A DNA stretch of 25,199 nucleotides from a virus. The position numbers and the translations under genes were made by a program. Shown here in pieces: positions 4,784 to 25,199 of the stretch. A model generated the notes under the pieces. That model made no database searches, was not told the DNA's origin, and was given only the letters and a program-made list of their open reading frames with translations. The stretch spans positions 1 through 25,199 of IMG/VR virus record IMGVR_UViG_3300037558_002079; one strand, given 5' to 3'. Each line of letters opens with the position of its first letter. Positions within the stretch are counted from its first letter, which is position 1.

Positions 4784-4810
4784 TAAAAAAAATATTTTTA
4801 AGGATATTAC

Positions 4811-6372: not shown

Positions 6373-6376
6373 AACG

Positions 6377-6382: not shown

Positions 6383-6383
6383 A

Positions 6384-6390
6384 CTAAATA
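6384..6390 (+). promoter_or_regulatory. late-promoter-like box CTAAATA
   Basis: CTAAATA lies 19 bases before the GTG start at 6410, with AAGGAA between as ribosome site. The same layout recurs at 3946 and 6958. Confidence 0.5.
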
Positions 6391-6409
6391 TTGACATCAA
6401 GGAAACAGT

Positions 6410-7218: not shown

Positions 7219-7227
7219 GGATAAATT

Positions 7228-7776: not shown

Positions 7777-7785
7777 GGAGTAATA

Positions 7786-10362: not shown

Positions 10363-10373
10363 CAGGATAATAG

Positions 10374-11276
10374 ATGACAACACAAATACAATTAAAAAGG
10401 TCATCTACTGTTGGCAGTGTTCCTACTGCATCAGATCTAGAATATGGTGAACTTGCAGTCAATACTAGAGACGGAAAGTTATTTTTCAAACATTTAGACT
10501 CTAATGGTGCGGAACAGATCATAAGCATTGTGGAGGATAAAGAAGATAACTTTTCTATTGATAGCAGTGGATTAACATATAGTTCTAGTAATACTTTAAA
10601 GACTGTGCTAGATGATCTTGATGCAACTATAATTACAAAAGCAGATTTCAGTGCCACTACTAATACTGCAAGTGGCACTGGTGATTTATCATATAATAAT
10701 GCTACAGGTGTATTTTCTTTAACACCACCTGTAGTGCCTACATCAATTACAAATTTAGGTATAAGTGACGGACAATCTGGACAATTTTTACAAACAGATG
10801 GTGCAGGTAGTTTTTCCTTCGCATCAGTTGCTAATCCTTTAACAGTAAAAAAAATAAATTCTAATAATACAGCATTAACAACTGTAAACAATGTAACTGA
10901 TATTCGTTTTGATACTGATAGCGGATTTGATGTAACAGATCTAGGATCAGGTGCAGTAAAAATACAGATGAACTCTACTTTCAAGACTTGGAAAGTAAGC
11001 GGTGAAACAGATTTAGTTGCAACAGGTTTAGATATAATAGAAATTGTTGCAGGATCTGGTATTGAAATCCTTACAAATCCAACAGGAAGCACCTATAAGC
11101 AATTGACAATTAACAATACACGGTTTGGTACTGGATCAGGTGGAGGTGCAATTGGAGTAATTATAGATATTTCTATTGCAGATGATGGAGATATGTTGTT
11201 ACATCATGTTGATACTTTTAACAGCGATAATGCCAAAATAAACAGCAACGGAGAATTTATCTTAACAGATGAATAA
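10374..11276 (+). CDS. virion structural / tail-fibre protein (300 aa)
   Basis: It begins with the fibre attachment module: IQLKRSSTVGSVPTASDL, then YGELAVNTRDGKLFFK at 23-38. A middle part has DLSYNNATGVFSLTPP (near 104-119) and the linker DGQSGQFLQTDGAGSFSF, both standard pieces of T4-like fibre proteins. The C-terminal 150 residues are beta-rich with no known tip fold and an acidic end. The next gene, 11 bp downstream, is also a fibre protein. It is probably a trimeric baseplate- or fibre-associated protein. The family assignment rests on modules and context. Confidence 0.78.
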   Translation: MTTQIQLKRSSTVGSVPTASDLEYGELAVNTRDGKLFFKHLDSNGAEQIISIVEDKEDNFSIDSSGLTYSSSNTLKTVLDDLDATIITKADFSATTNTASGTGDLSYNNATGVFSLTPPVVPTSITNLGISDGQSGQFLQTDGAGSFSFASVANPLTVKKINSNNTALTTVNNVTDIRFDTDSGFDVTDLGSGAVKIQMNSTFKTWKVSGETDLVATGLDIIEIVAGSGIEILTNPTGSTYKQLTINNTRFGTGSGGGAIGVIIDISIADDGDMLLHHVDTFNSDNAKINSNGEFILTDE

Positions 11277-11287
11277 AAGGACATAGT

Positions 11288-13360
11288 ATGGCAACTTTAA
11301 ATTTAGGCAGGGTAAGATTAAATTTCAAAGGAGAGTACAGTACTCTTAATGGAACCGATCTAGAATTTTTTGATGCTGTTACCCATAGTGGATCATTATA
11401 TGTGGTCACTGCTACGGGGATAACCACAGTGGTTGACACTGACAGTGGCAATCGACCTCCTAGCACAACAGGCCAATCTAGTTTCAAAAAGATCACAGAA
11501 GGTTTTCAATTCCACACTACCTGGAATGACAATAAAATATATTATAAAAATGACATAGTATTCTATGCAAATACCAGTTACATTGCTGTGGCAGAAGTCC
11601 CTACTAGCACGAGTAATCCTGCTACAGAGGTTGCTAATGCCACAGGATATTGGGCTCCATTAGCGCAAGGTTTTGGTAATTACATTTCAACTTACAATGG
11701 TACTACTGTACTTGCAGAAGGAGATATGGTAAGATGGCAAGGCTCTTTATATCGAGCTAAGACTGCTACCACAAATAGTCAAACTCCTAGCAACACTGCA
11801 GCAAGTTTTGATGTTGTAATTCCAGGATTTGATCCGCAAGGCACATGGAGTGCAGGCACATATGTTTATCGGCAAGTAGTAGAATTCCATGGCAAATCTT
11901 ATGTAGTAGTAGCAGAAGCTGGTACCACCCAGCAGCCATTAAATGCCACCACAGGCCTAGTACAAAGTGATTGGAAACTTTTAATAAACGGATTTAAGTT
12001 CGTTGGTGATTATGATGCAAGCAGTAGTGACGGATATTATGCTGGAGACATGATAGATTTCAATAATGTGTTGTATGCAGTCACTGGTAGACTACCGAGT
12101 GGTACCACTCCAATCCAAGCACCTAATGAAGTCAATCTAATTCTCCAAGCACCTACACTTGATCTACAAGATTTAGGAAATGTATCTACAACAAATGTAT
12201 CAACAGGAAGTTTGTTGAGATACAACGCAGATAACAAATGGCATGCAAGTGATGTAAACCAAGATCTAGATATATCTCCGTTTGGTAGCACAGGCACTAT
12301 TACAGTTGGTTCTGATTATCACACACGAGGAGCATTTAGTTCTCACAGTCTAGCACCAAAAGCCTATGTTGATTCTTTGTCTAATGGGCTTGATGTTAAA
12401 GCATCATGTAAAGTAGCAACAACACAAAATTTACCATCAAACTATAGTTTTGTAACCTTTTCTCTAACCAGCACCGCAAATGCTGCATTGATTATTGACA
12501 CTATCACTCTGCAGGCAAATGATAGGATCTTAGTCAAGGACCAGACTGATCAAACCCAGAACGGTTTTTATTATGTCACTGACACAGGTAGTGGATCAAC
12601 TCCTTGGGTAATAAAACGCACAGAAGATGCAGATAGTTCTGTGGATGTCACAGGAGGCTCTTTTACTTTTGTAGAGCAAGGGTCGGTAAATGCAAACAAT
12701 GGTTTTGTAGCAACCCATAATGGAAGCCCAACATTTGGCACTACGGATATTACTTTTGAGCAGTTTTCAGGTGCAGGACAGATAGATGCTGGTGCTGGTC
12801 TTATAAAGGCTGGTAACACACTGACTGTGCAAACAGATAACAGCACACTTGAAATCAATAATGATATTGTGAGAATTAAAGATCAAGGTGTTGTGAATGC
12901 AAAAATTGCAAATACCACAATTGATCTCTCAGCCAAGGTTACAAATCAATTACCTGTGGCTAATGGTGGTACAGGGTTAGCCACTGTAACTTCTAATGCA
13001 ATACTCTATGGTAATGGGACTGGTAATTTACAGGTAACTACTGCTGGCACTGGTGGTTACATACTCTATTCAAACAGTGGTACACCTGATTGGACAAATG
13101 TTATCAACGGCGGTATATACGGAACCGGCACTGGTACAACGACTGGATTTTTAGCAAAAATTAAACCTAGGCGCAGTGAAGTATCATTTGAGATACCAAG
13201 TGCAGCTGATATTGAAGAGGGTGAACTTGCGGTAAATACAGTAGATAAAAAAATATATGTTAGAGATAGCAACAATGCTATTATCGAAATAGGTAACACA
13301 GAAGGAGGCGGAGGTGCTGCTTCTGATGATGGATTTATTAATGCACTTATATTTGGATAA
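11288..13360 (+). CDS. tail-fibre protein with carbohydrate-binding-like repeats (690 aa)
   Basis: About residues 70-285 hold four diverged repeats of the pattern W/Y...Y..GDxVxxxxxxYxA...P, for example FHTTWNDNKIYYKNDIVFY and TWSAGTYVYRQVVEFHGKSY. This is the look of small chitin/cellulose-binding modules (CBM5/12 type), so glycan binding is a reasonable guess. Then come the linker LQDLGNVSTT...LLRYN, the domain at 358-500 (KAYVDSLSNGL, ANDRILVKDQT, QNGFYYV) shared with the 858-residue fibre, a repeat-like INNDIVRIKDQG stretch, and a C-terminal copy of the module usually found at the start of such proteins (EEGELAVNTVDKKIYVRD). That unusual C-terminal position suggests fusion or mosaic assembly. 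The Gly-rich end carries no tip domain. Confidence 0.82.
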   Translation: MATLNLGRVRLNFKGEYSTLNGTDLEFFDAVTHSGSLYVVTATGITTVVDTDSGNRPPSTTGQSSFKKITEGFQFHTTWNDNKIYYKNDIVFYANTSYIAVAEVPTSTSNPATEVANATGYWAPLAQGFGNYISTYNGTTVLAEGDMVRWQGSLYRAKTATTNSQTPSNTAASFDVVIPGFDPQGTWSAGTYVYRQVVEFHGKSYVVVAEAGTTQQPLNATTGLVQSDWKLLINGFKFVGDYDASSSDGYYAGDMIDFNNVLYAVTGRLPSGTTPIQAPNEVNLILQAPTLDLQDLGNVSTTNVSTGSLLRYNADNKWHASDVNQDLDISPFGSTGTITVGSDYHTRGAFSSHSLAPKAYVDSLSNGLDVKASCKVATTQNLPSNYSFVTFSLTSTANAALIIDTITLQANDRILVKDQTDQTQNGFYYVTDTGSGSTPWVIKRTEDADSSVDVTGGSFTFVEQGSVNANNGFVATHNGSPTFGTTDITFEQFSGAGQIDAGAGLIKAGNTLTVQTDNSTLEINNDIVRIKDQGVVNAKIANTTIDLSAKVTNQLPVANGGTGLATVTSNAILYGNGTGNLQVTTAGTGGYILYSNSGTPDWTNVINGGIYGTGTGTTTGFLAKIKPRRSEVSFEIPSAADIEEGELAVNTVDKKIYVRDSNNAIIEIGNTEGGGGAASDDGFINALIFG

Positions 13361-13363
13361 CAA

Positions 13364-14812
13364 ATGACAACTGTGGTAGGAAATAAAATTTTAAAAAATT
13401 TAGGCACAACCCAAACTACCCTTTTAGAAACCACAGCTAATAATCGTTTCACTGTGATTGGTCTAAGTTTCACTAATGTGAGTGATAGTATTGTTTACGT
13501 AGATGCCACCTTGGATGATGGCTACTACATGAAAGATGTGATGCTGCCAGTTGGTAGCAGTCTCAGAGCCATCAATTCTGGCGAAAAACTTACAATGGGG
13601 TTCAACAGTAATTTCAAAGTAAGTGCATCGGCAAATAATTCTATTGACGTTATTGCTAGTTTTGCTAGTATCGTAGAACAAGGTCTTGACACTGAAGTAC
13701 AACTGCTTGAAGGTGAAGGCATACGAATAGTAAGGAATGGTAATAAAATAAGGGTAGGTGTTGTACCGCAAGATTTACATATTGGTGTGGCAGCAGATGA
13801 TAGTTCAGTCAAAGATATCAAGATTGGAGAAACACTAGAATTACGTGGCACCCAAAATATATCAACTGCAAGTGATGCAGAAGGCCGTATAACTTTTACT
13901 GGTCCAGATCTTACATCTTATGTACAAAGCACAGATGTAGCTTGGCAGATTAGTGCGGATAATGATACATACCGAAATATAATTGTAGGAAACAGGATAA
14001 AAGTCAGCGGTACACAAAATGTTTCAACAACTAGCGATGCAGTAGGAAACATAGTAATTGCTGGACCTGATCTTTCTAATTATGTGCAAAACACTGCCAC
14101 TGCTTTCAGTATTACCACAGATGACACTACCACAGATCCTGTTTTAATAAATGAAACGATACAAATAAAAGGCGGTAATAATATCACAACCAGTAACGAT
14201 GGCAGTGGTGGCATTGTTATTTCTGGACCCGCTAATCTGTTGAACATAGGAGCTGATGATTTACAATATAAACAATTAAGTATTGGCGCAAACTTTGCTA
14301 TAAAAGGAGGCACCAATGTTACAACAACAAGTGATGCAAATGGCAATATAACAATAAATGGTGCAGATCTTACAAGTTATGTGCAAAACACAGATGTCGC
14401 GTGGCGAAAGGGTGATCAAGCAGGTACATATCAGGATGTAACTGTAAACAACACGGTGCAGTTCAGAGGCTATAACGGTATTACCGTTTCTCACATTACA
14501 AATGGTATTGGTATCACCGGTCCGAGTGTGCTTTGGAGGATCGCAGCAGATGATGATCAATACAAAACAGTAGGTGTAAATCAGAACATTAAGCTAATTG
14601 GAGGTTCAGGTATTACCACTACAAGTGATTCAAGTGGAAATATTACAATCACCGCTGGTGGGGGTGCAATCACTCTAGGTTCACTAGCAAATGTAACCAC
14701 AACTAATCCACAGAATAATGATATATTGGTTTACAATAATAACCAATGGGTAAACACTCCAAACACTGCAGGCGATTTAGATCCAATCGTTGCTGCAATA
14801 GCATTAGGATAA
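13364..14812 (+). CDS. virion protein with six beta repeats (482 aa)
   Basis: Residues 1-107 form a domain (FTVIGLSFTNVSDSIVYVDA, LPVGSSLRAINSGEKLTMGF) that resembles the whole of the 116-residue protein encoded next. From about 138 to 431 there are six repeats spaced 43-54 residues apart, with the core ADDxxxKxIxIGxxIxxxGGxNITTTSDxxGNIxIxGP; several are separated by DLTSYVQ-type linkers. The pattern predicts a repetitive beta shaft. The C-terminus has ITLGSLANVTTTNPQ and QWVNT, a standard fibre motif. It starts 3 bp after the upstream stop. It is probably a baseplate-proximal fibre or connector; the exact T4 equivalent is unclear. Confidence 0.78.
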   Translation: MTTVVGNKILKNLGTTQTTLLETTANNRFTVIGLSFTNVSDSIVYVDATLDDGYYMKDVMLPVGSSLRAINSGEKLTMGFNSNFKVSASANNSIDVIASFASIVEQGLDTEVQLLEGEGIRIVRNGNKIRVGVVPQDLHIGVAADDSSVKDIKIGETLELRGTQNISTASDAEGRITFTGPDLTSYVQSTDVAWQISADNDTYRNIIVGNRIKVSGTQNVSTTSDAVGNIVIAGPDLSNYVQNTATAFSITTDDTTTDPVLINETIQIKGGNNITTSNDGSGGIVISGPANLLNIGADDLQYKQLSIGANFAIKGGTNVTTTSDANGNITINGADLTSYVQNTDVAWRKGDQAGTYQDVTVNNTVQFRGYNGITVSHITNGIGITGPSVLWRIAADDDQYKTVGVNQNIKLIGGSGITTTSDSSGNITITAGGGAITLGSLANVTTTNPQNNDILVYNNNQWVNTPNTAGDLDPIVAAIALG

Positions 14813-14815
14813 ATA

Positions 14816-15166
14816 ATGGCGAGCGTATTTAAAGTTAAAACAAAAGCAGATACAAGTGCAAGCACAGCAGATACAGTCTATACAGTGCCTGCCAGTAAGA
14901 CATCAGTGGTGCTAGGACTTGTGCTGGCTAACAAGGCCGCAGCAAATATTACAGTAACTGTCACGCTGGTATCTGATACAGCAGACACAGAAACGAATGC
15001 AGATGTTCTATTATTAAGTGGAGTTAGTGTGCCACAGAACAGCACACTAGAAATGTTTGCAGGACAAAAATTGGTATTACAGCAGACAGATGCCATAAAA
15101 GTTTTAAGTAGCACTGCGAGTGCATTAGATGTTACACTCAGTATTTTAGAAATGGATAATGCATGA
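14816..15166 (+). CDS. small beta-domain virion protein (116 aa)
   Basis: A single compact domain with alternating strands: VYTVPASKTSVVLGLVLAN, ITVTVTLVSDTAD, then SGVSVPQNSTLEMFAGQKLV and a final VTLSILEMDNA. It matches in order and spacing the N-terminal 107 residues of the 482-residue protein just upstream (GLSFTN...LPVGSSLRAINSGEKL), so the two probably share a fold, and one may be a stand-alone duplicate. It could cap or bridge fibres, or form a small decoration protein. Its end overlaps the next start (ATGA). Confidence 0.7.
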   Translation: MASVFKVKTKADTSASTADTVYTVPASKTSVVLGLVLANKAAANITVTVTLVSDTADTETNADVLLLSGVSVPQNSTLEMFAGQKLVLQQTDAIKVLSSTASALDVTLSILEMDNA

Positions 15167-15402
15167 GTAAAGTTTTGGATATTGCTAATAATCAATTTGC
15201 GTTGTTGTCAGGTGTGTCTGTACCGCAAGTAATTAACACAGCATATACGGCAATCGCAGGTAAAAACAGTTTATTTTATGGCACAGTTGAATTTAGCAAT
15301 ACTGTAACGGTGCCTAACACAGCAAATCTTATGTTTATAGGTACAGATGTAGATTTTAAACAAGATATCAATGTGCAAGGCACATTAGATTGGAGAACAT
15401 AA
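15163..15402 (+). CDS. short beta-structured fibre stub (79 aa), cassette A
   Basis: A 79-residue piece with the pattern GKNSLFYGTVEFSNTVTVP...INVQGTLDW. The same pattern (x-L-x-G-x-V/I-x-V-P/x...NVxGT) recurs in the 72- and 74-residue proteins of later cassettes and at the C-termini of the two MPYxG proteins, so it is a shared docking or shaft unit. The ATG overlaps the upstream stop (ATGA), and the next ATG follows its stop directly. It looks like the N-terminal part of a fibre split off as a separate chain. It has no enzymatic features. Confidence 0.72.
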   Translation: MSKVLDIANNQFALLSGVSVPQVINTAYTAIAGKNSLFYGTVEFSNTVTVPNTANLMFIGTDVDFKQDINVQGTLDWRT

Positions 15403-15906
15403 ATGGCAGATTTTAAATTAAATGGCGTAACATTTGCTACAGAGAGTAATAATAAAATAAATTTCAGTAGCGATGTTTTATTCAATGGACATGTATTGCA
15501 GGTTGTGCAGCAACAACACACTAGTGGGGCAGCAATTGGTACAGGTTATACTACACCGGTTGCAACAAACTTTATAGCAACATTGCCCTCTTTAAAGTCA
15601 AACACTAATAAAATTTTTATATCTCTCAATGGTGGAGAAGCTGATTGTGATGGTGCAGGTATTAGAACTTTATATTTTTATCAATCAATAGCCGGTGCAT
15701 CATACACGGCGATACCTAATGCAGAATTTGCCCAATCTGTAAATCATACATCTTATTCTAGATTTCCTACTGCAAATCAATGGTTGTATACACCAGCCAC
15801 GACACTGCAGGTTAGTATACAAGTTTATTTGTCAGCTAGTGCAAACAATCATTGGCTTACAAATGGTAAAGTGGTGACTCTAACGCTTATGGAGATAGGA
15901 CAATGA
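15403..15906 (+). CDS. receptor-binding tip protein (167 aa), cassette A
   Basis: Residues 1-30 hold an N-terminal motif (ADFKLNGVTFATES) like those of other tips here. The NGHVLQVVQQQH stretch at 28-39 marks the entry to a globular beta domain common in phage fibre tips (compare FAGHILQVQYTQ and FPAGHVIQTRS in cassettes B and E). Strands such as KIFISLNGGEADC, RTLYFYQSIAG and TLQVSIQVYLSAS suggest a jelly-roll head of about 130 residues. The TDW-type chaperone gene follows with an ATGA overlap, the usual order for a fibre and its helper. The ligand is unknown. Confidence 0.75.
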   Translation: MADFKLNGVTFATESNNKINFSSDVLFNGHVLQVVQQQHTSGAAIGTGYTTPVATNFIATLPSLKSNTNKIFISLNGGEADCDGAGIRTLYFYQSIAGASYTAIPNAEFAQSVNHTSYSRFPTANQWLYTPATTLQVSIQVYLSASANNHWLTNGKVVTLTLMEIGQ

Positions 15907-16238
15907 ATTATAGAAATGAAGCATTAAAAATCATAATGAAGGGAAGGATTTGGACCAATACAGCAAATAATGAAATTATTATTCATGATAACGGACACAA
16001 ACCTACTGAAACAGAAATACAAGAAAAAATAGAAGAAGTTATTGCTGCTGAACCTATGATGATGTTGAGAGATGAGAGAGATAAACTTCTTGCCGAAACA
16101 GATTGGCGAGCAACAATTGATTATCAAGGTGCAAAACAGAGTGAATGGTTGACTTATAGGCAAGCACTGAGAGACTTGCCAGCCAACACAGCAGATGCCA
16201 ATAATCCAACATGGCCAACACCCCCGGAGAGTGATTAA
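15903..16238 (+). CDS. tail-fibre assembly chaperone (Phage_tail_APC-like, 111 aa), cassette A
   Basis: The C-terminal half has the tail assembly chaperone signature RDKLLAETDW (59-68) followed by SEWLTYRQALRDLP (80-93), then a Pro-rich end. The N-terminal 50 residues are helical with an acidic stretch (TETEIQEKIEEVIAAE). Two paralogues occur at 17609 and 21845, each placed directly after a tip gene. The expected role is folding or trimerisation of the tip it follows. The start overlaps the tip stop (ATGA). CCGGAG near its end probably serves as the ribosome site of the next gene, which overlaps its stop (TAATG). Confidence 0.85.
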   Translation: MNYRNEALKIIMKGRIWTNTANNEIIIHDNGHKPTETEIQEKIEEVIAAEPMMMLRDERDKLLAETDWRATIDYQGAKQSEWLTYRQALRDLPANTADANNPTWPTPPESD

Positions 16239-16717
16239 TGCCATACCTAGGATCAGCACCAAGGACCACAAACGCAGCTAATTTGATAGATCATAAGGAA
16301 TATCTTGGTGCTAATGCTGACACGGCAACCAACAGTGGATACTATACTTTTGTTGCAAGTTATACACCAAATCATGTGAGTGTGATTGTGAGAGGTATTA
16401 ATCTCGCAACCAGTGATTATGTAGCTACAAATGGTGTAGATATACGCATACCAACCAGCAGTATTACACTGCAAGCGGAAGACGTAATAGAAATACTAGG
16501 ACATACCACAACCACTAATCAAGTGATAGAACGCAGTGATATACACCTAACAGGCGGACAGGCTGTAAACATGCAGAAAGTAGAAGCAAGATATTTTATG
16601 AATCCCAATACTTATACTGCTGATCTACATATTCCTGCTGCAAACAATGCATTCTTTGCTGGACCTGTCAATTTTACAGGTACACTGAATGTTGAGGGTG
16701 TGCTAAACGTAATTTAG
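16238..16717 (+). CDS. fibre adaptor protein of the MPYxG type (159 aa), cassette B
   Basis: It begins MPYLGSAPRTT, an N-terminus typical of fibre adaptors in T4- and T7-like marine phages. A beta domain follows (YYTFVASYTPNHVSVIVRGI, then SITLQAEDVIEILG), similar to one copy of the two-copy domain in the cassette C protein. The C-terminal 35 residues (ADLHIPAANNAFFAGPVNFT) match the short stub proteins. It is probably the part that docks the next chains to the tail. It is coupled to the chaperone upstream by TAATG. Confidence 0.75.
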   Translation: MPYLGSAPRTTNAANLIDHKEYLGANADTATNSGYYTFVASYTPNHVSVIVRGINLATSDYVATNGVDIRIPTSSITLQAEDVIEILGHTTTTNQVIERSDIHLTGGQAVNMQKVEARYFMNPNTYTADLHIPAANNAFFAGPVNFTGTLNVEGVLNVI

Positions 16718-16725
16718 GAAAAACT

Positions 16726-16944
16726 ATGCCAAGTATTACTAAACAGAAAAGTGTACTAGTTGGAATAAACACAAAAACGTTTACGAATGATGTTGTGGTA
16801 GATAATAACTACAGCGCCATACTAAGTGGTCCTATCACAGTTCCAAATATCACAGTGAATGGCACACTGAATGTTGTAAACAATCTCAATGTTACAGGTA
16901 ACATTGTGATTGGCAGCACAGGAAACTTAAATTTAACTGGATGA
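16726..16944 (+). CDS. short beta-structured fibre stub (72 aa), cassette B
   Basis: A 72-residue protein: a basic N-terminus (PSITKQKSVLVG), then NNYSAILSGPITVPNITVNG and a series of NV/NL steps ending in GNLNLTG. It is close to the 74-residue stub at 20995 (DNYSAILVGPITVSGSITVP), which shows duplication of the unit. The following tip gene starts 3 bp after its stop. It is likely a shaft segment made as a separate chain. Confidence 0.72.
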   Translation: MPSITKQKSVLVGINTKTFTNDVVVDNNYSAILSGPITVPNITVNGTLNVVNNLNVTGNIVIGSTGNLNLTG

Positions 16945-16947
16945 TCA

Positions 16948-17589
16948 ATGCCTGATGCAAGTTTGACCATAGATGGCACAGAAGTAATACGTAAAGCAAG
17001 CGGAGTTGTAACTGCAAATCATTTTGCTGGACATATTTTACAAGTACAGTATACTCAGTTTAAGGGTACTGCTAGGATGACAGGTATGGTAAAACGTACT
17101 CATTATCCAATTTGTGATGGAGTAGCTGGAAGTGGCACTGAAATTTTAAATGTAAGCATAACTCCTAGATTTACTAATTCAGTTATTTGGTTACAGGTTG
17201 GTTGGTGTGGAGAATTTGAAGATTATAATGTTGTTCATGATTCTATGTTTGGAATTATAAGAGATTCTACAGCAATTGGAATTCCAGATATTGGTGGTGG
17301 TTTAGGTTCTGTAAACGTTATGGCTCATGGAGTAACACCTCCTGCTTTAAGTTTTTATGGTGATGACGCTACAGATACTTTGGAAAGTGCGAAATATCAA
17401 TATTTTGATCAGCCAAACACACTTTCTGCTGTTACCTATAAAGTTTCTATACACTATTCAAGAAATATCAGTGCTACTGGATTATATACAAATAGAAATG
17501 TTGCAGGTAATGCAGCTACAGGTTCATATGATTTAGAAAATAAAGAACGTGGAATATCATCTATTGTTGCTATGGAAATAAAACAATAA
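16948..17589 (+). CDS. receptor-binding tip protein (213 aa), cassette B
   Basis: The N-terminal module is SLTIDGTEVIRKASGVVTAN, then FAGHILQVQYTQ at 26-37, the border motif shared with the tips of cassettes A and E. The globular part of about 170 residues has strands such as SVIWLQVGWCGEFED and TYKVSIHYSRNIS and ends SSIVAMEIKQ, the usual end of this fold (compare LTLMEIGQ in cassette A and FIVQEVQQ in cassette E). The three tips share entry and exit motifs but little in between, as expected of receptor-binding heads under diversifying selection. A TDW-type chaperone gene follows after 19 bp. Confidence 0.78.
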   Translation: MPDASLTIDGTEVIRKASGVVTANHFAGHILQVQYTQFKGTARMTGMVKRTHYPICDGVAGSGTEILNVSITPRFTNSVIWLQVGWCGEFEDYNVVHDSMFGIIRDSTAIGIPDIGGGLGSVNVMAHGVTPPALSFYGDDATDTLESAKYQYFDQPNTLSAVTYKVSIHYSRNISATGLYTNRNVAGNAATGSYDLENKERGISSIVAMEIKQ

Positions 17590-17608
17590 TAAAGTAAAAG
17601 GTAATTAA

Positions 17609-17884
17609 ATGAGTAATGCTAGAGATATTGCAGAGGTTGAACAGCAAGAAAAGACTTGGCAAGATCAAGCTTATGACCGTGCATTAAGGAGACTGCGAGA
17701 AAAACGCAATCAACTCTTAACAGAAACAGATTGGATTATCACAAAAGGATTAGAGCAGGGCACAGAACTTACTGAATGGAAAACATATAGACAGTCACTA
17801 AGAGATTTTCCCACAACAGCTGAACCACAACTAGATGACGATGGTAATTTAACAAACATAATTTGGCCGGAGGTACCTGCGTAA
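17609..17884 (+). CDS. tail-fibre assembly chaperone (Phage_tail_APC-like, 91 aa), cassette B
   Basis: It carries RNQLLTETDW (33-42) and TEWKTYRQSLRDFP (55-68), then a C-terminal block LDDDGNLTNIIWPEVP (75-90) that is nearly the same in the cassette E chaperone. The N-terminal helix is shorter than in its paralogues. The codons for its last residues include CCGGAGG, well placed as ribosome site for the next gene, whose ATG overlaps the stop (TAATG). It probably serves the 213-residue tip. Confidence 0.83.
   Translation: MSNARDIAEVEQQEKTWQDQAYDRALRRLREKRNQLLTETDWIITKGLEQGTELTEWKTYRQSLRDFPTTAEPQLDDDGNLTNIIWPEVPA
17863..17879 (+). repeat. 17-bp perfect repeat, copy 1 (with 22186-22202)
   Basis: TTGGCCGGAGGTACCTG occurs here and at 22186-22202, at the 3' ends of two chaperone genes. 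It encodes WPEVP and also contains the GGAGG ribosome site for the next gene. It is a shared joint between cassettes. Confidence 0.85.
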
Positions 17885-18531
17885 TGCCTTACATAGGGAA
17901 CCAACCAACCACTGAAACGGTACAGGACAGTAGATCATACACAGGCGATGGCACTCGCACAGTTTTTGGTGTAAAATATAACAGTAATTTTGTCTCAGTA
18001 TTCCAAAACGGAATAAAACTAAATGAAGGTACTGATTACAATATCCATGCTGAAGGCACAATGATTACCTTTGTTGCCGCACCAGAGTCAGGAGATATTG
18101 TTAATGTAGTTGGCACTAATGAACTTACAGACATAGCTCGCAGCAGTTACATGCGAGAAACATTTACCAGCACTGCCGGACAAACAGAGTTTTCAGTCAC
18201 GCAAAATTTTGGTGCGAGTGATAAAATTAACGTGTATCTAAATGGCTTGCGATTGAGCGAAATAGACTACACGATAAATTACACCACCAGGAAAATAATT
18301 TTTGCAGCAGGTAGGTTGGTAGATGATGTTGTGGCAGTTGAAATAATTACTCCTGGATTCCGCAGTGATCAACATTTTACCCGGGGAGAAAGTGCACATC
18401 ATCTCAGTTTGGCTAATCCCAGCACTATGTATGCAGATGTAACAGTAGCTGCAGATGAAAATGCATTGATAGTTGGTCCTTTAACAGTAAATAGTATTAT
18501 AACAGTAAATGGAAGTTTAACGATAATATAA
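17884..18531 (+). CDS. fibre adaptor protein of the MPYxG type with duplicated domain (215 aa), cassette C
   Basis: The start is placed at the ATG at 17884 (TAATG overlap, GGAGG upstream, MPYIG N-terminus like MPYLG at 16238); an in-frame ATG 21 bp earlier lies inside the chaperone gene. There are two copies of a roughly 65-residue beta domain: GDGTRTVFGVKYNSNFVSVF...NGIKLNEGTDY (about 20-80), and AGQTEFSVTQNFGASDKINV...NGLRLSEIDY (about 95-158). This domain is common in T7- and T4-like fibre proteins. The C-terminal 35 residues (ADVTVAADENALIVGPLTVN) are the stub pattern. It is probably the docking base for the collar-type tip that follows. Confidence 0.78.
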   Translation: MPYIGNQPTTETVQDSRSYTGDGTRTVFGVKYNSNFVSVFQNGIKLNEGTDYNIHAEGTMITFVAAPESGDIVNVVGTNELTDIARSSYMRETFTSTAGQTEFSVTQNFGASDKINVYLNGLRLSEIDYTINYTTRKIIFAAGRLVDDVVAVEIITPGFRSDQHFTRGESAHHLSLANPSTMYADVTVAADENALIVGPLTVNSIITVNGSLTII

Positions 18532-18532
18532 C

Positions 18533-19219
18533 ATGGCAAGTTCACTACACATAGATAATCTAAAAGAAAGAACCCTTGCAAATTCTATTGTCCTACATAA
18601 TAATATCCGTAACTCTAGTGGTTTAGTGTTAGTAAATGTTAATGGTGACGACACTGCTACATTCAATGCCAGCTTTATTGGTTCAATCGCAGCGTTTGGC
18701 ACCGACGTAGTGCCTGCAGGATGGTTAGAGTGTGACGGATCTGCTGTAAACCAATCGACTTACAGTAGCCTGTATGGTGTGATTGGTACGAAGTGGGTAA
18801 CTGCATGGGCATCAGGACAGAGCATTACCGCAAACCAATATAGGAAAAACGCTGCAGGTGCAGTATATCAAGCAGTAGGTTCAGGCACTACTAGTGGTTC
18901 AGACCTTGAATCAGATAGCGGGGTCAGTTGGAACCCAGTCTCAGTTTTCGAAGTACCTGATCTACGTGGAGAATTCCTGCGTGGTTGGGACAACACTAGA
19001 GGCGTAGATTCTAGCAGGACATTTGCTAGTGCTCAAGGCGATCTGTTCAAAAGCCATAATCATAACACAGGCGGTATAGGTTTTGGCGGAGGTAGTGCTA
19101 CCTCCAGTCATTTTTATGCTGTTGGTAGTGGTGGCGGTGGACCAGTCACTGTAACCAGCGCAGGTGGGTCAGAAACAAGACCTAGGAATATCTCTGTTAT
19201 GTATTGTATAAAACACTAG
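18533..19219 (+). CDS. phage tail collar domain fibre tip (228 aa), cassette C
   Basis: It has the tail collar family pattern found in T4 gp12 and many fibre tips: IGSIAAFG, then PAGWLECDGSAVNQSTYSSL (61-80), VPDLRGEFLRGWDN (141-154), the histidine cluster SHNHN (174-178), a Gly-rich loop and the C-terminal ETRPRNISVMYCIK (214-227). In gp12 the histidines bind metal along the trimer axis; that is likely here too. Residues 1-45 are a short shaft. It is a host-receptor binding protein by family. The Tfa-like chaperone gene that follows matches this tip class and differs from the TDW type used in cassettes A, B and E. Confidence 0.88.
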   Translation: MASSLHIDNLKERTLANSIVLHNNIRNSSGLVLVNVNGDDTATFNASFIGSIAAFGTDVVPAGWLECDGSAVNQSTYSSLYGVIGTKWVTAWASGQSITANQYRKNAAGAVYQAVGSGTTSGSDLESDSGVSWNPVSVFEVPDLRGEFLRGWDNTRGVDSSRTFASAQGDLFKSHNHNTGGIGFGGGSATSSHFYAVGSGGGGPVTVTSAGGSETRPRNISVMYCIKH

Positions 19220-19225
19220 GAAAAC

Positions 19226-19558
19226 ATGTACGCTTATAATATTTACACAGGACAACCAGTACGTAGACAAAGAAGTCCCCTAGAAGAAAATGTATATCTG
19301 TTACCCAAGGACAGTACAGAAGTCGCACCGCCGGAGTTTGATACTGACAAAGAAACTTGTGTGTTTAATGGTGTTGAATGGATAATAGCGAAAATAACAA
19401 CACCTGAACCAATAGCAGAACCTGAACCCACTTATCAAGAAAAAAGATTGACTGCATATGGTTCTCCACATGAACAATTAGAATTTATAACTGAGAAAGG
19501 TTTAACTGCATGGAAGAGTCGTGTGGCAGAAATTAAGAAACAATATCCGAAAGAATAA
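19226..19558 (+). CDS. Tfa-like tail-fibre assembly protein (110 aa), cassette C
   Basis: The N-terminal half follows the Tfa/gp38-like pattern: YAYNIYTGQPV, SPLEENVYLLPKDSTEVAPP and ETCVFNGVEWIIAK. After a Pro/Glu-rich linker the C-terminal part reads YGSPHEQLEFITEKGLTAWK...IKKQYPKE, a helical segment common behind marine phage fibre genes. It lies 6 bp after the collar tip stop, so it should help that tip fold. The start ATG follows AGGAAA. It belongs to a family unrelated to the TDW-type chaperones of the neighbouring cassettes. Confidence 0.82.
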   Translation: MYAYNIYTGQPVRRQRSPLEENVYLLPKDSTEVAPPEFDTDKETCVFNGVEWIIAKITTPEPIAEPEPTYQEKRLTAYGSPHEQLEFITEKGLTAWKSRVAEIKKQYPKE

Positions 19559-19560
19559 CT

Positions 19561-20826
19561 ATGCCAGGTATAATCAAAGTAGATGAAATAGAACAAGGAC
19601 CAGGAGGCGCTGGTGTAAAGCTGAAACATGCTCTCAAAGACAGCAGTGGCCAGGACATAATCAGTGAAACCGCAAACACTGTCACAGTTGCTACTGATAA
19701 ATTAAATATTGGCACAACTGAGGTAATAGACAGCTCAAGACAGATAAAGAATACCACACTGGCAGATAGTGTGGTACCTGCACACAGCTACATGTTTCGA
19801 AACAAGATTATAAATGGCAGTATGTCAGTAGCACAGTATTCAACCACACCAGTCACAGGTGTCACCGCATCGGGAAAACCCGTGGTTTGTGATAGATGGC
19901 ATACGTTTGGTAGCGGATTTGGTGAATATACTCTAGCACAAAGCACTGATGCACCTGCAGGCTTTGCAACAAGTTTGTTGATAGACAACACAGCAACCAG
20001 TGGTGCTGGTGGTTCAGATCATTTTGGCATACAATACAAGTTTGAAGGTCAGGAACTACAATCATTCGTAAAAGGCAACAGTGCTGCACAGCCAATGACC
20101 GTGAGTTGGTATAGCAAGACCACCAAGCCCGGGGTGTACACTGTAGAGCTAGACGATCGAGATAACACTCGCAGTATATCAGCACAATTTACAGCAACCA
20201 CTGCTTGGACAAGGCACAGTGTTACATTTCCAGGTGATACTACAGGGGCGCTTGATAATGATAATCTTGCTTCTTTGCATTTAAGCTGGTGGTTAATGGC
20301 AGGCACAGGCTTTACCAGTGGTACACTACAAACAGCATGGGATGCTAGGACTAATGCAAACAGGGTAAGCTCAACAAATATTAATCTAAGTGATAATATT
20401 GCAAACAGTTTTTACATTACCGGAGTACAATTAGAAATGGGCAACACAGCCACACCATTTGAGCATCGTCAAATAGGAATGGAATTAAGTTTGTGTCAAA
20501 GGTATTTCTTTAATTTTACATCACTTAGTGGGTTGATAATACATCCCTACACAAGCACATTATCACAAACAAATATATATTTTCCTGTTTCAATGAGAAG
20601 TACCCCAACAATAGCCACAATCACTTCTGATAGAGTCGCTTTAGGAGGTGTATCTAATATATCAACTACATTAACTTCTGGAACCACTTCTTATAGGAGC
20701 AATTCTGGTGGATCTCAACAGGTAACAATACGATTCACTTCCTCAACATCACTTACTACTGGGACAAGTTATATGATATTTCCTGATTCAGTTAACAGTG
20801 GTGCTACATTTTCATCAGAGTTATAA
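19561..20826 (+). CDS. tail-fibre receptor-binding protein (421 aa), cassette D
   Basis: Residues 1-75 are an N-terminal shaft (MPGIIKVDEIEQG, NIGTTEVIDSSRQI). From FRNKIINGSMSVAQ (79-92) starts a jelly-roll domain of about 230 residues that ends with VQLEMGNTATPFEHRQIG and LCQRYF (289-315). It is the widespread fibre domain with the ending VQLE-G...TPFE-R..G.EL.LCQRY. A separate C-terminal tip (317-421) has Ser/Thr-rich strands and ends SSEL. Proteins at 22737 and 23984 share the first parts but differ after CQRY. The small 53-residue gene follows with a TAATG overlap. Its role should be host recognition. Confidence 0.83.
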   Translation: MPGIIKVDEIEQGPGGAGVKLKHALKDSSGQDIISETANTVTVATDKLNIGTTEVIDSSRQIKNTTLADSVVPAHSYMFRNKIINGSMSVAQYSTTPVTGVTASGKPVVCDRWHTFGSGFGEYTLAQSTDAPAGFATSLLIDNTATSGAGGSDHFGIQYKFEGQELQSFVKGNSAAQPMTVSWYSKTTKPGVYTVELDDRDNTRSISAQFTATTAWTRHSVTFPGDTTGALDNDNLASLHLSWWLMAGTGFTSGTLQTAWDARTNANRVSSTNINLSDNIANSFYITGVQLEMGNTATPFEHRQIGMELSLCQRYFFNFTSLSGLIIHPYTSTLSQTNIYFPVSMRSTPTIATITSDRVALGGVSNISTTLTSGTTSYRSNSGGSQQVTIRFTSSTSLTTGTSYMIFPDSVNSGATFSSEL

Positions 20827-20987
20827 TGTATAAATTAATAAAAGAAAATAACAATATTGTAAATATCTTAAATCTAAAACAGCAATTATGGATTCCATTA
20901 GACCCAGCCAACTCAGACTATCAAGAATACTTAACGTGGCTTGCAGAAGGTAATGAACCAGAACCAGCAGATGAACCGGGAGAATAA
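20826..20987 (+). CDS. small acidic fibre-partner protein (53 aa), cassette D
   Basis: A gene too short for many gene finders. It runs from an ATG that overlaps the fibre stop (TAATG) to TAA at 20985-20987. The N-terminal MYKLIKENNN and the C-terminal half IPLDPANSDYQEYLTWLAEG, then NEPEPADEPGE, are closely matched by the 55-residue protein at 23798. The motif IP-D--N-DYQEYL-WLA-GNEPEPAD is known to me as a conserved small protein next to fibre genes in phages. Strict placement after RNKIING-type fibres suggests a dedicated chaperone or a small subunit. The gene is real by conservation; its function is inference. Confidence 0.8.
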   Translation: MYKLIKENNNIVNILNLKQQLWIPLDPANSDYQEYLTWLAEGNEPEPADEPGE

Positions 20988-20994
20988 ATAACAT

Positions 20995-21219
20995 ATGTCA
21001 GGAACACTATACGCAGATAACTTCCATGGTAAGTTGATGATGCATGATACAACATACAGTGACACAGTAACCATAACTGATAATTATTCAGCCATTCTGG
21101 TTGGACCTATCACGGTCAGTGGTAGCATAACCGTGCCAGAAACCAGCAATCTTACTGTGTTTAACAACATCTCAGTCACAGGCACTGTTGACGTAACAGG
21201 TACAATGGATATAAGATGA
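20995..21219 (+). CDS. short beta-structured fibre stub (74 aa), cassette E
   Basis: A 74-residue paralogue of the cassette B stub: SGTLYADNFHGKL, then DNYSAILVGPITVSGSITVP and repeated NV/VTG steps ending in VTGTMDIR. No ribosome site stands close to the ATG; TAAATA, formed by the upstream stop codon plus ATA, ends 4 bases before it, and GGGAG is 12 bases away. Its end overlaps the tip gene by ATGA. It is likely a shaft segment made as a separate chain. Confidence 0.72.
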   Translation: MSGTLYADNFHGKLMMHDTTYSDTVTITDNYSAILVGPITVSGSITVPETSNLTVFNNISVTGTVDVTGTMDIR

Positions 21220-21848
21220 GTGGATCAATCACAGTAGGCGGTAAGACACTAGCAAGTCACGATAATGGGACTGGAAATCTCAGTTTAAATAACAATGTTC
21301 AATTCCCTGCTGGACATGTGATCCAAACAAGAAGTGTAACCACATATGTAGCTCAATCTTCACAGGTAGATGTAACATATGCCACTACACCAGCTTCAAG
21401 TGGAACACTCAGTGCTACATTAGATTCAAATGGCATTTATAGGTTGAAGGATTCGGAAGGGTCATATTTGACTATCCCTAATTTTAGTGCAAAGCAAGGT
21501 AATTTATTAATTGGTACTATTTCTTATGGTGGACCTAACATAGAGTCTTTATCTTGGTACTCAATGGGTGTGCAATGGGGTAGTGAAAATAGAAGAACCT
21601 ATAAAAAAATGGGTTATGATGGTGGAGGTAATTATCATGCAGCAGAATCTACAGTAATTCTTTATACTTGTTTGGAGGATTTAAATAATGTGGATGTACA
21701 TGCGATCCTTAGAATTGAAGAATCTGGTAAAACAATGGAATTTGCAACGCATGATGATACTACGGCTAATGTTACCAATTGGGGCCGACTTGGAGGTTCT
21801 TATTCAGATGTAGCTTTTTATTTCATAGTGCAGGAAGTCCAACAATGA
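21216..21848 (+). CDS. receptor-binding tip protein (210 aa), cassette E
   Basis: Residues 1-25 (ITVGGKTLASHDNG) match the starts of the two following fibre proteins (TIGGKTVFTQSG, KVGGNTIATHTG). FPAGHVIQTRSVTT at 30-43 is the border motif of the tip family in cassettes A and B. The globular part has strands such as NLLIGTISYGG and WYSMGVQWGSENR, a Gly-rich loop, and an end FYFIVQEVQQ. Its N-terminus thus resembles cassette F while its head resembles cassettes A and B, a mosaic. The TDW-type chaperone gene overlaps its stop (ATGA). Confidence 0.77.
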   Translation: MSGSITVGGKTLASHDNGTGNLSLNNNVQFPAGHVIQTRSVTTYVAQSSQVDVTYATTPASSGTLSATLDSNGIYRLKDSEGSYLTIPNFSAKQGNLLIGTISYGGPNIESLSWYSMGVQWGSENRRTYKKMGYDGGGNYHAAESTVILYTCLEDLNNVDVHAILRIEESGKTMEFATHDDTTANVTNWGRLGGSYSDVAFYFIVQEVQQ

Positions 21849-22207
21849 GTAACTATTTATACCAAGCAGGAATTGCACTTGCCGGTGAAAATTCCGTAAG
21901 AACAACACATAGAAATTACATTGAATTTTTTGATCATATTGATCCAGTACCTTCATGGGAACAAATTCAAGAAAAAATAACAGAATTAAAAGCACTAGAA
22001 CCAATGCGCTTGCTACGCATAGAACGCAATCGTAGATTAGCAGAAACAGATTGGGTAACAATAAAAGCATACAGTCAAAGTTTAGTAGTTTCTGAAGAAT
22101 GGAAAACATATTTACAATCACTTAGGGATCTACCAGAAACACAAGAACCAAAATTAGATGATCAAGGTAATTTGACAAATGTTGATTGGCCGGAGGTACC
22201 TGAATAA
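21845..22207 (+). CDS. tail-fibre assembly chaperone (Phage_tail_APC-like, 120 aa), cassette E
   Basis: The start is placed at the ATG at 21845, which overlaps the tip stop (ATGA); an upstream in-frame ATG would add 22 residues lying wholly inside the tip gene. Signature: RNRRLAETDW (61-70) and SEEWKTYLQSLRDLP (83-97), then LDDQGNLTNVDWPEVP (104-119), nearly identical to the cassette B chaperone. The middle (WEQIQEKITELKALEPM) matches the cassette A chaperone (EIQEKIEEVIAAEPM). It thus joins features of both. The GGAGG encoded near its end serves the next gene (TAATG overlap). Confidence 0.85.
   Translation: MSNYLYQAGIALAGENSVRTTHRNYIEFFDHIDPVPSWEQIQEKITELKALEPMRLLRIERNRRLAETDWVTIKAYSQSLVVSEEWKTYLQSLRDLPETQEPKLDDQGNLTNVDWPEVPE
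22186..22202 (+). repeat. 17-bp perfect repeat, copy 2 (with 17863-17879)
   Basis: Identical to the copy at 17863-17879, at the same place in the paralogous chaperone gene and the same distance ahead of the next ATG. Confidence 0.85.
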
Positions 22208-22737
22208 TGGCAACTCTTACAATTGGTGGAAAAACCGTATTTACTCAATCAGGTACAGACGAACCTATCCTTAAAAATAATGTATTGATTGAAAAAGGTA
22301 TTATTGACGGTGACGCAGCTTATGGATATGCGCAACTGAAATTAATTAATCATTTAAACACACAAGGCAATATAACCTGGGAAACAATCGTAGGGGATAC
22401 CACTAATATTACCAAACCTTCAAGTAATCACGTAGTGAGATTAGCCATAGCAGGAATTTATCTAATACAGATAAATTTTGTAGGATATCTATCTGATAAT
22501 GAAAGTGGAGTAGCTGTGAGATTATACAGCGGTGATGGTGTTGTCTTACAAGAAAGTAGAGACAGTATTGAACAAGCAGATAGCACTGATACAAACTGTT
22601 GCGCAGCATTAACCTATGTAGCAAATTTTTCTGCAGGAGCTACGTTTTACGTAGATTTCATGTCTGATATCCACCAGACTGCGAAATGTCATAAAGTAAC
22701 CCATGGTTCAGTTGTTTTACTAAGGAGAACAGCGTAA
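22207..22737 (+). CDS. C1q/TNF-like tip protein (176 aa), cassette F
   Basis: The N-terminus has the short module TLTIGGKTVFTQSGTDEPIL shared with its neighbours. The remainder looks like a C1q/TNF-type jelly roll: ITWETIVGDTTNIT, SNHVVRLAIAGIYLIQINFV (the strand plus IAGIYLIQ core typical of the fold), then GVAVRLYSGDGVVLQES and a final HGSVVLLRRT. Such domains form trimers and are found as phage receptor-binding heads. A double cysteine lies in DTNCCAAL. It has TAATG overlaps at both ends and no TDW-type chaperone of its own. Confidence 0.72.
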   Translation: MATLTIGGKTVFTQSGTDEPILKNNVLIEKGIIDGDAAYGYAQLKLINHLNTQGNITWETIVGDTTNITKPSSNHVVRLAIAGIYLIQINFVGYLSDNESGVAVRLYSGDGVVLQESRDSIEQADSTDTNCCAALTYVANFSAGATFYVDFMSDIHQTAKCHKVTHGSVVLLRRTA

Positions 22738-23795
22738 TGGCAGGAACACTCAAAGTTGGCGGAAATACAATAGCAACACACACTGGCGTAGAGGGCACAG
22801 GGCAAGTGTCACTGACTAATGTTAGCCTAGGTGGTGGAGCTTTCATGTTCCGCAACAAGATTATCAACGGTGGCTTTGATATTTGGCAAAGAGGAACATC
22901 ATTTACTATATCTAACTCGACTAATACATATTCTACCGACAGATGGAGATTTTTAGGTAGTGCCTTCACAGGTACGCTAACAAGAGAAAATTTTAGTCCT
23001 GGACAAACTGAAGTACCGAATAACCCAGACTATTTTGCAAAATGGACGGTTACAACTAATCCAGCAGGTAATATGGCGTTTGGACAGTACATTGAAAACG
23101 TAAGGACGCTTGCTGGAAAAACTGCAACTTTATCACTATATTTAAAATCAAGCTCAACAATCTCAGCAGATAACCTACAGATACGTTATAGGCAAGTTAC
23201 TGGTGGCACAGGTGGTACTAACAACGCAATTAATATTGGAGAGATCACAACAGCCTGGAAGAAATTCACATTCCAACTTAATATTCCTTCATTGACAGGT
23301 GCTGGTTTAGGTACTCCAAATGTCAGTTATTTGGCTTTAGAAATACTTTCTCCTTCTGCCCATACATCTGCTTTTGATTTGTCAATAGCACAAGTCCAAC
23401 TAGAAGAAGGCACAGCAGCCACACCGTTTGAGCACAGGCCCATTGGAGTGGAGTTAAGTTTGTGCCAGAGGTATTTCGAAAAAAGTTATGATCTAGCTGA
23501 TGGAATAGGTGGCAACAGTGCAAAGGGTATGATTAGAGCTAATGCAAGAGATTCCGGTTCCTTTCACAGAGGCGACATAAGATTTAAAGTTAGTAAGCGA
23601 AGTTTACCTGAAATAAAAATTTATGCTTATTATAGCGGCACACTAGGACACTATAGGGATACAAGCAATGGTGTAGATAGAGCTGCATTATCACAATATA
23701 TAGGTGAAAATAGTTTTGAAGCCTATGCAAGTGGTGGAGTAATGTCAACTGGTGCTTTGCATGGTTTCCACTATACAGCAAACAGTGAGTTATAA
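22737..23795 (+). CDS. tail-fibre receptor-binding protein (352 aa), cassette F
   Basis: A short N-terminus (TLKVGGNTIATHTG) is followed by FRNKIINGGFDIWQRGTSF from residue 38, a jelly-roll domain, and the ending VQLEEGTAATPFEHRPIG and LCQRYF at 220-247. The tip (248-352) is distinct from those of the paralogues at 19561 and 23984 and ends in NSEL. The shaft is much shorter than in the 421-residue protein, so this fibre may be a side branch. The DNA around FRNKIING is identical over 29 bp to the gene at 23984. The small acidic partner gene follows after 2 bp. Confidence 0.83.
   Translation: MAGTLKVGGNTIATHTGVEGTGQVSLTNVSLGGGAFMFRNKIINGGFDIWQRGTSFTISNSTNTYSTDRWRFLGSAFTGTLTRENFSPGQTEVPNNPDYFAKWTVTTNPAGNMAFGQYIENVRTLAGKTATLSLYLKSSSTISADNLQIRYRQVTGGTGGTNNAINIGEITTAWKKFTFQLNIPSLTGAGLGTPNVSYLALEILSPSAHTSAFDLSIAQVQLEEGTAATPFEHRPIGVELSLCQRYFEKSYDLADGIGGNSAKGMIRANARDSGSFHRGDIRFKVSKRSLPEIKIYAYYSGTLGHYRDTSNGVDRAALSQYIGENSFEAYASGGVMSTGALHGFHYTANSEL
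22842..22870 (+). repeat. 29-bp perfect repeat at the fibre domain border, copy 1
   Basis: This 29-bp stretch, encoding FMFRNKIING, is identical to 24134-24162. Flanking DNA differs on the 5' side and is diverged on the 3' side. The third paralogue (about 19790-19816) has the same protein motif with different codons. A shared entry point for domain exchange is the simplest reading. Confidence 0.88.
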
Positions 23796-23797
23796 GA

Positions 23798-23965
23798 ATG
23801 TACAAACTTTTATTAACATATGATTTAGAACCCTCCGATTGTATATTAAGAATAGAAGATAGAGCTTGTATTCCTATGGATGAATCTAATGTTTCATATC
23901 AAGAATACCTAGCATGGTTAGCACAAGGCAATGAACCAGAACCAGCAGATGAATCACAAGAATAA
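23798..23965 (+). CDS. small acidic fibre-partner protein (55 aa), cassette F
   Basis: A gene too short for many gene finders: ATG at 23798 to TAA at 23963-23965. It is the paralogue of the 53-residue protein at 20826. The N-terminal half differs (MYKLLLTYDLEPSDCILRIE), while the C-terminal IPMDESNVSYQEYLAWLAQG, then NEPEPADESQE, is nearly the same. It again follows an RNKIING-type fibre, here after 2 bp. The variable N-half and constant C-half suggest that the N-half contacts the fibre tip and the C-half a common partner; this is inference. Confidence 0.8.
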   Translation: MYKLLLTYDLEPSDCILRIEDRACIPMDESNVSYQEYLAWLAQGNEPEPADESQE

Positions 23966-23983
23966 ATACTGTAAAGGTATCCT

Positions 23984-25186
23984 ATGAGCGAAATAAAATT
24001 AAGTGGCACTACGGTAATAGACAACACCGGTGGTACTGTTACAGTAGACGCTAACCAGTTGCAGATTGGCAGCACTACGGTTATAGATAACAACAAAAAA
24101 TTATCTAACGTTGATATTGTGCCAAATTCCAGCTTCATGTTCCGCAACAAGATTATCAACGGCGGAATGCACATAGCTCAAAGAGGAACCTCATTTTCTT
24201 TTGCACATGATGGTACTACTTCTGGACATACTTTAGATAGGTTTCAATTTGTTACTGGCAATACAGATGAGTATGATTGCACAGTTTCTCAGTATTCAAT
24301 GTCTACATCAGATTTAAATACAACAGGACATAGTAATGCGTTAAAACTTTTGACAGGTACTGCTGAGTTAGCAATTGTAAATAATGAACAAGTTCATATT
24401 TCTTATAAAATTGAAGCTCAAGATTTGCAGGATTTACAGTATGGAACTACTTCAGCAAAAACAGTGACATTAAGTTTTTGGGTTAAGTCATCAGTAACTG
24501 GAACATATGCAGTTGCTGGTTATAAAGATGACTCTACCACCAGAATAATAAACAGAACTTACACAATAAACTCTGCTGACACTTGGGAGAAAAAAACTAT
24601 TAGTATAGTTGGTGATACAGACAGCACCGGATCTATTGTTAATGACAGTGGGGAAGGACTAAGAATTGTATGGGCTCTTGCTTCTGGATCAGATTTTAAT
24701 AGTTCAAGTTCAACAACTTGGACTAATTATTCTAATGCTCATTTTTTAGGGGGTCATGTACAAAATGGAGTTGTTACAACAGCAAATGCGGATTGGTATC
24801 TAACTGGAGTCCAGCTTGAAGAAGGCACGGTCGCAACACCGTTCGAGCACAGGCCAATAGGAATGGAACTTAGTTTATGCCAAAGATACACAACAACAAT
24901 AGGTAATGGTTATTTTGCAGGTAATGGGGCTGGTGGTTCTGCTATAGTTTTTGGTGTACCTCTTTGTGTGCCTTTAAGGGGCGCACCATCCATAGAAAAA
25001 ATAGGTGGGGCAAACATTAGTATACACAGATCCGGTAACAACACTAATGCTAATGCCACAGTAACAGTTAGTGCCTGGAAAGAAAATGCAACAGTACTAA
25101 AGCTTAGAACTTCACATAGTAGTAGTGATGAAAGTGTCTATTCTTTAAATGTAAATAATAGTTTCCTAGTGGTATCAGAATTATGA
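23984..25186 (+). CDS. tail-fibre receptor-binding protein (400 aa), cassette G
   Basis: The N-terminal 50 residues contain IGSTTVIDNNKKLSNV, like the IGTTEVIDSSRQIKNT part of the 421-residue protein at 19561. FRNKIINGGMHIAQRGTSF starts at 53, the jelly-roll domain follows, and VQLEEGTVATPFEHRPIG with LCQRYT lies at 276-303. The tip (304-400) is different again and ends VSEL. So its start resembles cassette D and its domain border cassette F. TATCCT before the ATG is a poor ribosome site, with AAGG slightly further. A further ATG overlaps its stop. Confidence 0.84.
   Translation: MSEIKLSGTTVIDNTGGTVTVDANQLQIGSTTVIDNNKKLSNVDIVPNSSFMFRNKIINGGMHIAQRGTSFSFAHDGTTSGHTLDRFQFVTGNTDEYDCTVSQYSMSTSDLNTTGHSNALKLLTGTAELAIVNNEQVHISYKIEAQDLQDLQYGTTSAKTVTLSFWVKSSVTGTYAVAGYKDDSTTRIINRTYTINSADTWEKKTISIVGDTDSTGSIVNDSGEGLRIVWALASGSDFNSSSSTTWTNYSNAHFLGGHVQNGVVTTANADWYLTGVQLEEGTVATPFEHRPIGMELSLCQRYTTTIGNGYFAGNGAGGSAIVFGVPLCVPLRGAPSIEKIGGANISIHRSGNNTNANATVTVSAWKENATVLKLRTSHSSSDESVYSLNVNNSFLVVSEL
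24134..24162 (+). repeat. 29-bp perfect repeat at the fibre domain border, copy 2
   Basis: Identical to 22842-22870 and at the same point of the domain plan, about 1.3 kb downstream in the paralogous gene. Confidence 0.88.
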
Positions 25187-25199
25187 TTCAATATAAAAT
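25183..25199 (+). CDS. start of a further gene, cut by the window end
   Basis: An ATG overlaps the fibre stop (ATGA at 25183-25186) and opens a frame, MIQYK, that runs to the window end. In the same place the other two RNKIING-type fibres have the small 53-55 residue partner gene, beginning MYKL. This may be a third copy, but five codons cannot show it. Confidence 0.45.

Follow-up and report, generated by a model that had tools for sequence, protein, structure and literature searches.

A tail-fibre array of at least nine tip cassettes in a marine phage, probably T4-like, and the probable exchange of tips together with their partner genes

The locus described here lies in a stretch of 25,199 bases, the whole of one IMG/VR virus record (the window), in which genes for tail-fibre tips and their partners follow one another back to back on one strand from position 15163 to the window end. 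We judge with a probability of roughly 75% that these genes are the tail-fibre section of a host recognition cluster (HRC), that the phage is a marine T4-like relative of Melnitz and Mosig, and that the array, with at least nine tip cassettes, exchanges tip and partner as a block. In general a cassette opens with a stub or short adaptor and goes on with a receptor-binding tip, or two of them, and a class-matched partner gene. The HRC is a known kind of locus; the pairing of tip and partner classes and the joints of block replacement are what is added here.

Results

Tip cassettes form a co-directional run that extends past the window

From 6982 on, 30 genes stand in a row on the + strand (a count that includes the continuation in another contig, L002), separated by -7 to +19 bp and with frequent start/stop overlaps of the ATGA and TAATG kinds. 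Overlaps and gaps of this size over 30 genes fit a single polycistron. The features are as follows.

6982-15166, +: upstream fibre block of seven genes (6982, 7228, 7786, 10374, 11288, 13364, 14816), long fibre proteins with gaps of 3-11 bp
15163-15402, +: cassette A, stub (stub family HMM)
15403-15906, +: cassette A, GHxxQ head (GHxxQ family)
15903-16238, +: cassette A, PF16778 tail assembly chaperone (E 5.3e-15)
16238-16717, +: cassette B, adaptor with stub motif at its end
16726-16944, +: cassette B, stub
16948-17589, +: cassette B, GHxxQ head, modelled TNF/C1q-like lectin fold
17609-17884, +: cassette B, PF16778 chaperone (E 1e-12; 89.6% DNA identity to contig L208)
17884-18531, +: cassette C, adaptor with stub motif at its end
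18533-19219, +: cassette C, Collar-domain tip (E 1.1e-14; PDB 9cuy short tail fiber, E 1.2e-5)
19226-19558, +: cassette C, partner of the pC family, phrog_9114, 110 aa
19561-20826, +: cassette D, RNKIING/CQRY tip (phrog_4492, E 1.8e-42)
20826-20987, +: cassette D, small partner, 53 aa, absent from the preliminary description
20995-21219, +: cassette E, stub
21216-21848, +: cassette E, FPAGHxxQ head
21845-22207, +: cassette E, PF16778 chaperone (E 1.2e-15)
22207-22737, +: cassette F, first head (98.4% identity over 63 bp round the start codon with L208, where the head gene is a different one)
22737-23795, +: cassette F, RNKIING/CQRY tip (phrog_4492, E 9e-58)
23798-23965, +: cassette F, small partner, 55 aa, absent from the preliminary description
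23984-25186, +: cassette G, RNKIING/CQRY tip (phrog_4492), modelled CBM4-like module
25183-25199, +: cassette G, small partner, start only (rest in L002, 8164-8355; cassettes H and I next)

The run of seven cassettes proposed in a preliminary description of this DNA is real, with open reading frames at 15163, 16238, 17884, 19561, 20995, 22207 and 23984. The cassette starts given there are right, but the inventory overlooked the small partner genes in the D-E gap (20826-20987) and the F-G gap (23798-23965); a third such gene, beginning at 25183, is cut by the window end. The array itself also goes further than had been described. Contig L002 (IMGVR 3300020438_000944) is 100% identical over window 17020-25199 and continues with cassette G's small partner, then a cassette with a headH gene, and a poly-glycine tip (Pfam Gly_rich_2) with a fourth partner family. 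Since L002 extends identical sequence with at least two more cassettes, the array holds at least nine. A second contig is 99.99% identical over window 383-22549 and has the same gene order; in the three overlapping records the order agrees wherever they overlap, and no array variation was seen between the two near-identical contigs and the window.

The genes of window 1-6937, upstream of the fibre run, are host-like and encode a redoxin, a glutaredoxin-like protein, a GMP synthase (GuaA, 578 aa), an AlgH-like DUF179 protein, a methyltransferase and an aminotransferase that resembles 5-aminolevulinate synthase (55-56% to Parvibaculum/Rhodobiaceae). Naming a host from the aminotransferase was rejected, the matches to Parvibaculum/Rhodobiaceae metagenome-assembled genomes being too low at that identity. 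Further upstream of window 383, contig L039 (IMGVR 3300037672_001248) carries genes for a PurN-like formyltransferase and a cupredoxin/plastocyanin-like protein as well as HNH-like and ParB-like genes, and no core T4-like structural gene was recognised there by eye.

Tips model as lectin-like and CBM4-like folds

The partner genes at 15903, 17609 and 21845 match PF16778 (Phage_tail_APC chaperone) with 48-58 bits against a gathering cut-off of 26.6, and the tip at 18533-19219 matches the Collar domain (PF07484) with 54.5 bits against a cut-off of 24. The RNKIING/CQRY tips of cassettes D, F and G are three paralogues, matching the tail-fibre family phrog_4492 with E values of 2e-42 to 9e-58; cassettes A and B have GHxxQ heads of a single family, which is represented in many contigs. 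The earlier count of at least four tip classes is borne out, and the three partner families counted then are also present in the window: PF16778, a small protein with the YQEYLxWLAEGN motif and the product of the gene at 19226, 110 aa long. The 'C1q-like' label once given to 22207-22737 has no support from sequence: that head had no convincing match in Pfam, PHROGs or PDB. Models of a TNF/C1q-like kind come instead from the GHxxQ heads.

Searched against the PDB, the GHxxQ head profile matched the C-terminus of the solved chain 9efk ('orf22', 18 chains) with an E value of 1.8e-31. A model of head B, of moderate confidence (pLDDT 69), resembles the PLTL lectin, a TNF-like jelly roll (Z 9.3, rmsd 2.7, 126 aligned), and the GHxxQ heads accordingly model as a TNF/C1q-like lectin fold. 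The model of an RNKIING tip (pLDDT 77) contains a module like CBM4 (Z 13.4) and matches many predicted phage tail fibres. The tips may therefore bind cell-surface glycans through TNF/C1q-like or CBM4-like domains, folds that are in themselves no proof of sugar binding.

The partner probably helps the trimeric tip to fold, a role that has been shown for the chaperone of a cyanophage. The analogy is with cyanophage Pam3, in which gp24 and gp25 form a 3:3 complex (PMC9608196), and with the fibre-plus-chaperone modules of phages V22 and A5. A PDB search found no sequence relation of Pam3 gp25 to chaperones of the window type, and only 2kz6 matched. The small partner (53-63 aa) had no PDB or Pfam match, and its role as a chaperone, the least certain among the partners, is guessed from where the gene lies. 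The 72-bp segments repeated at 20919 and 23897, considered as recombination or regulatory sites, turned out to be the 3' ends of the small partner genes.

Partner class is predicted by tip class

We collected adjacent tip-partner pairs from all fetched loci and dereplicated them at 60% identity, which left 95 pairs. RNKIING tips are followed by a small partner in 55 of 59 pairs and glycine-rich tips by a pI partner in nine of nine, while GHxxQ heads go with PF16778 (14) or pC (11). The mutual information between tip and partner is 1.09 bits versus 0.07 after shuffling, a value reached in none of 5000 shuffles, in a set whose families were seeded from the window and whose loci were picked by tip searches, and in which common descent may inflate the signal despite dereplication. 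Among these sequences, the class of the partner is predicted by that of the tip.

Other layouts were also seen. Three contigs (L080, L111 and L064) have seven to nine consecutive RNKIING tip genes but few partner genes, which departs from the paired layout of the window. In two others (L160 and L136) the repeated unit is one stub with three tandem headH genes, which could hint at hetero-trimeric tips.

Tips and partners are replaced as blocks in relatives

Melnitz-1 (Bermuda) and Melnitz-3 (English Channel) differ by three replaced segments consisting of tips, with or without partners. The flanks and a large block between the replaced segments are 98.6-99.6% identical; in a third shared stretch, 180 bp long, the identity is 89.6%. 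At base level, two of the replaced segments end on the right at the stop codon of a partner gene and one at that of a tip gene; on the left, all three begin within head genes, at about codon 95, among the first 20 codons and at about codon 50. In one segment a glycine-rich tip with its pI partner and an RNKIING tip with its small partner are swapped for other heads with a PF16778 partner. Because this segment trades tips plus partners, the partner class changes with the tip class. The paper on these phages describes nine genes of altered length at this place and not block replacement (PMC9004378).

The related metagenome contig L208, in an order differing from that of the window, carries homologues of chaperone B (89.6%), tip F (74%), chaperone E (72%), headH (77%) and the stub/head of B (77%). 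Over 63 bp round the start codon of the cassette F head it is 98.4% identical to the window, and it then diverges into a different head. After a head gene of L208, a 51-aa reading frame (11112-11267) that ends in NITWPKVPE resembles the C-terminal remnant of a PF16778 chaperone and is possibly the scar of a past recombination. Divergence varies strongly between parts (dS 0.3 to 3), as would be expected of a mosaic. The clean block replacement in Melnitz and the reordered parts in L208 lend substance to the earlier suggestion of a reservoir of tips for exchange; the support comes from relatives and not from the window phage, and recombination is read from the joints.

If the array served for storage only, one cassette would be used and the others would be silent donors, exchanged into the expression position. 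The short, near-identical ends of adaptors and partners could indeed act as recombination tracts, but there is no pattern of promoter-less donors, since every cassette lies in the same co-directional run, and pN/pS is below 1 in all shared parts. With values of 0.16-0.68 for nine such parts, these are maintained and not decaying, and are under purifying selection as judged from substitutions. No reverse transcriptase, serine recombinase, resolvase or invertase, or tyrosine integrase was found in four contigs, which are fragmentary for the window phage, or in the Melnitz genome, and we regard storage alone as improbable. The same searches bear on phase variation by a shufflon or invertible fibre genes and on a diversity-generating retroelement. 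Similar segments are repeated within the array, as such mechanisms would have it; against them, the inverted repeats are weak (only 28-29 nt at 72-75%), all genes are on one strand and, within these fragmentary records, neither the recombinase nor the reverse transcriptase that they call for was found. Both were rejected as highly improbable; an integrase-based mechanism was rejected too. The late-promoter motif TATAAATA has 4 matches in the window, as many as chance expects, and sigma-70-like sites are no more numerous than in shuffles; because the counts are at chance level, these scans speak neither for nor against cassette promoters.

How many tips a particle carries is a separate matter. 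Each virion might display most or all of the tips simultaneously, attached to the baseplate or to separate fibres, and would then have many lectin specificities for a broad host range or for avidity. Such combined display is compatible with exchange and differs from it only in the number of tips per particle. All cassettes have intact reading frames and translationally coupled spacing, which together with the purifying selection on shared parts argues for display, as do the six or more RNKIING tips in a row in cultured Synechococcus phage MA01 and in other contigs. A T4-like baseplate, however, is expected to offer only a few attachment points. Moreover, on a panel of three strains the four Melnitz variants did not differ in host range, although their arrays do differ (PMC9004378). 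We hold combined display to be possible, if somewhat less than probable.

Discussion

Exchange of tips together with their partners, in the tail-fibre part of an HRC, is our preferred reading. About 30 co-directional genes would form one run, long fibre proteins first and then at least nine tip cassettes. Each partner would help its trimeric tip to fold, and the tips, going by their modelled folds, would bind cell-surface glycans. Recombination would start within the conserved 5' region of a tip gene and end at the stop codon of the partner or the tip, moving both as a block, and the phage population could in this way keep changing its tip set with adaptors and the next cassette left intact. 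A wider generalisation is that long arrays of lectin tips are maintained in marine T4-like phages, that the unit runs from the 5' adaptor joint to the partner stop and includes tip and class-matched partner, that several tips are displayed per particle and that host range changes in evolution as cassettes are added and swapped. Taken together, these statements are speculative and rather unlikely to hold.

Placement among phages relies on the fibre genes. A nucleotide search of the window against phage records gave no match. The nearest relatives of fibre protein 7786 are in the Methylophilales phages Melnitz and in Pelagibacter phage Mosig, which are filed as Kyanoviridae, that is, T4-like; genes 7786, 10374 and 11288 match adjacent fibre genes in both, and 14816 matches the gene immediately ahead of the Melnitz array. 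The homologous fibre region of Melnitz and Mosig precedes the neck genes. Synteny is loose, the matching long-fibre genes being downstream of the array in Melnitz and upstream in the window. Neither the window nor the inspected extension showed a recognisable core T4-like gene, so the assignment to a T4-like type rests on this fibre-gene homology. The locus is most likely the tail-fibre part of the HRC of T4-like marine phages (Kyanoviridae).

Receptor change in phages of abundant ocean bacteria is poorly known. An exchange unit that can be read, a tip with its matched partner between fixed joints, makes the question testable from sequence alone, and the class pairing tells annotators which small 'hypothetical' gene goes with which tip. 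The Melnitz isolates offer a ready cultured system.

The locus had been put forward as a candidate for an undescribed system. It fits instead the HRC known from pelagimyophages and cyanomyophages, as far as the cited passages of PMC7029224 describe it, and cultured relatives have comparable arrays. Arrays of several to nine tips occur in other contigs as well, and two RNKIING tips, both paired with a small partner, are present in Prochlorococcus phage P-TIM68; within a partial coverage of the literature, no paper with this layout of tail-fibre cassettes was found. Those passages portray the HRC as a large, hypervariable island of the structural region, where several tail fibres stand together with unrelated metabolic genes. 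The window locus likewise clusters its tail-fibre genes in a hypervariable island, with genes unrelated to the tail just upstream (peroxiredoxin, GMP synthase GuaA, ALA-synthase-like aminotransferase, AlgH-like protein and methyltransferase), and Mosig has comparable genes. The HRC lies between VrlC and the neck gene gp14, whereas the window contains neither and, like its sister contigs, is a fragment, so that the cluster borders are outside these records; tip/partner cassettes, class pairing and joints are resolved in the present analysis and not in the cited passages. Melnitz and Melnitz-1 to -3 (PMC9004378) likewise have a tip array with PF16778 or other partners near fibre genes homologous to 14816, 7786, 10374 and 11288, but with another tip set and with the long fibres after the array. 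Cyanophage Pam3 (gp24/gp25) has a single fibre. In Alteromonas phages V22 and A5 (PMC7289586, PMC10579305) a tip and its cognate chaperone also move together between phages; one fibre-chaperone module is described per phage there, whereas the window phage carries an array of nine or more.
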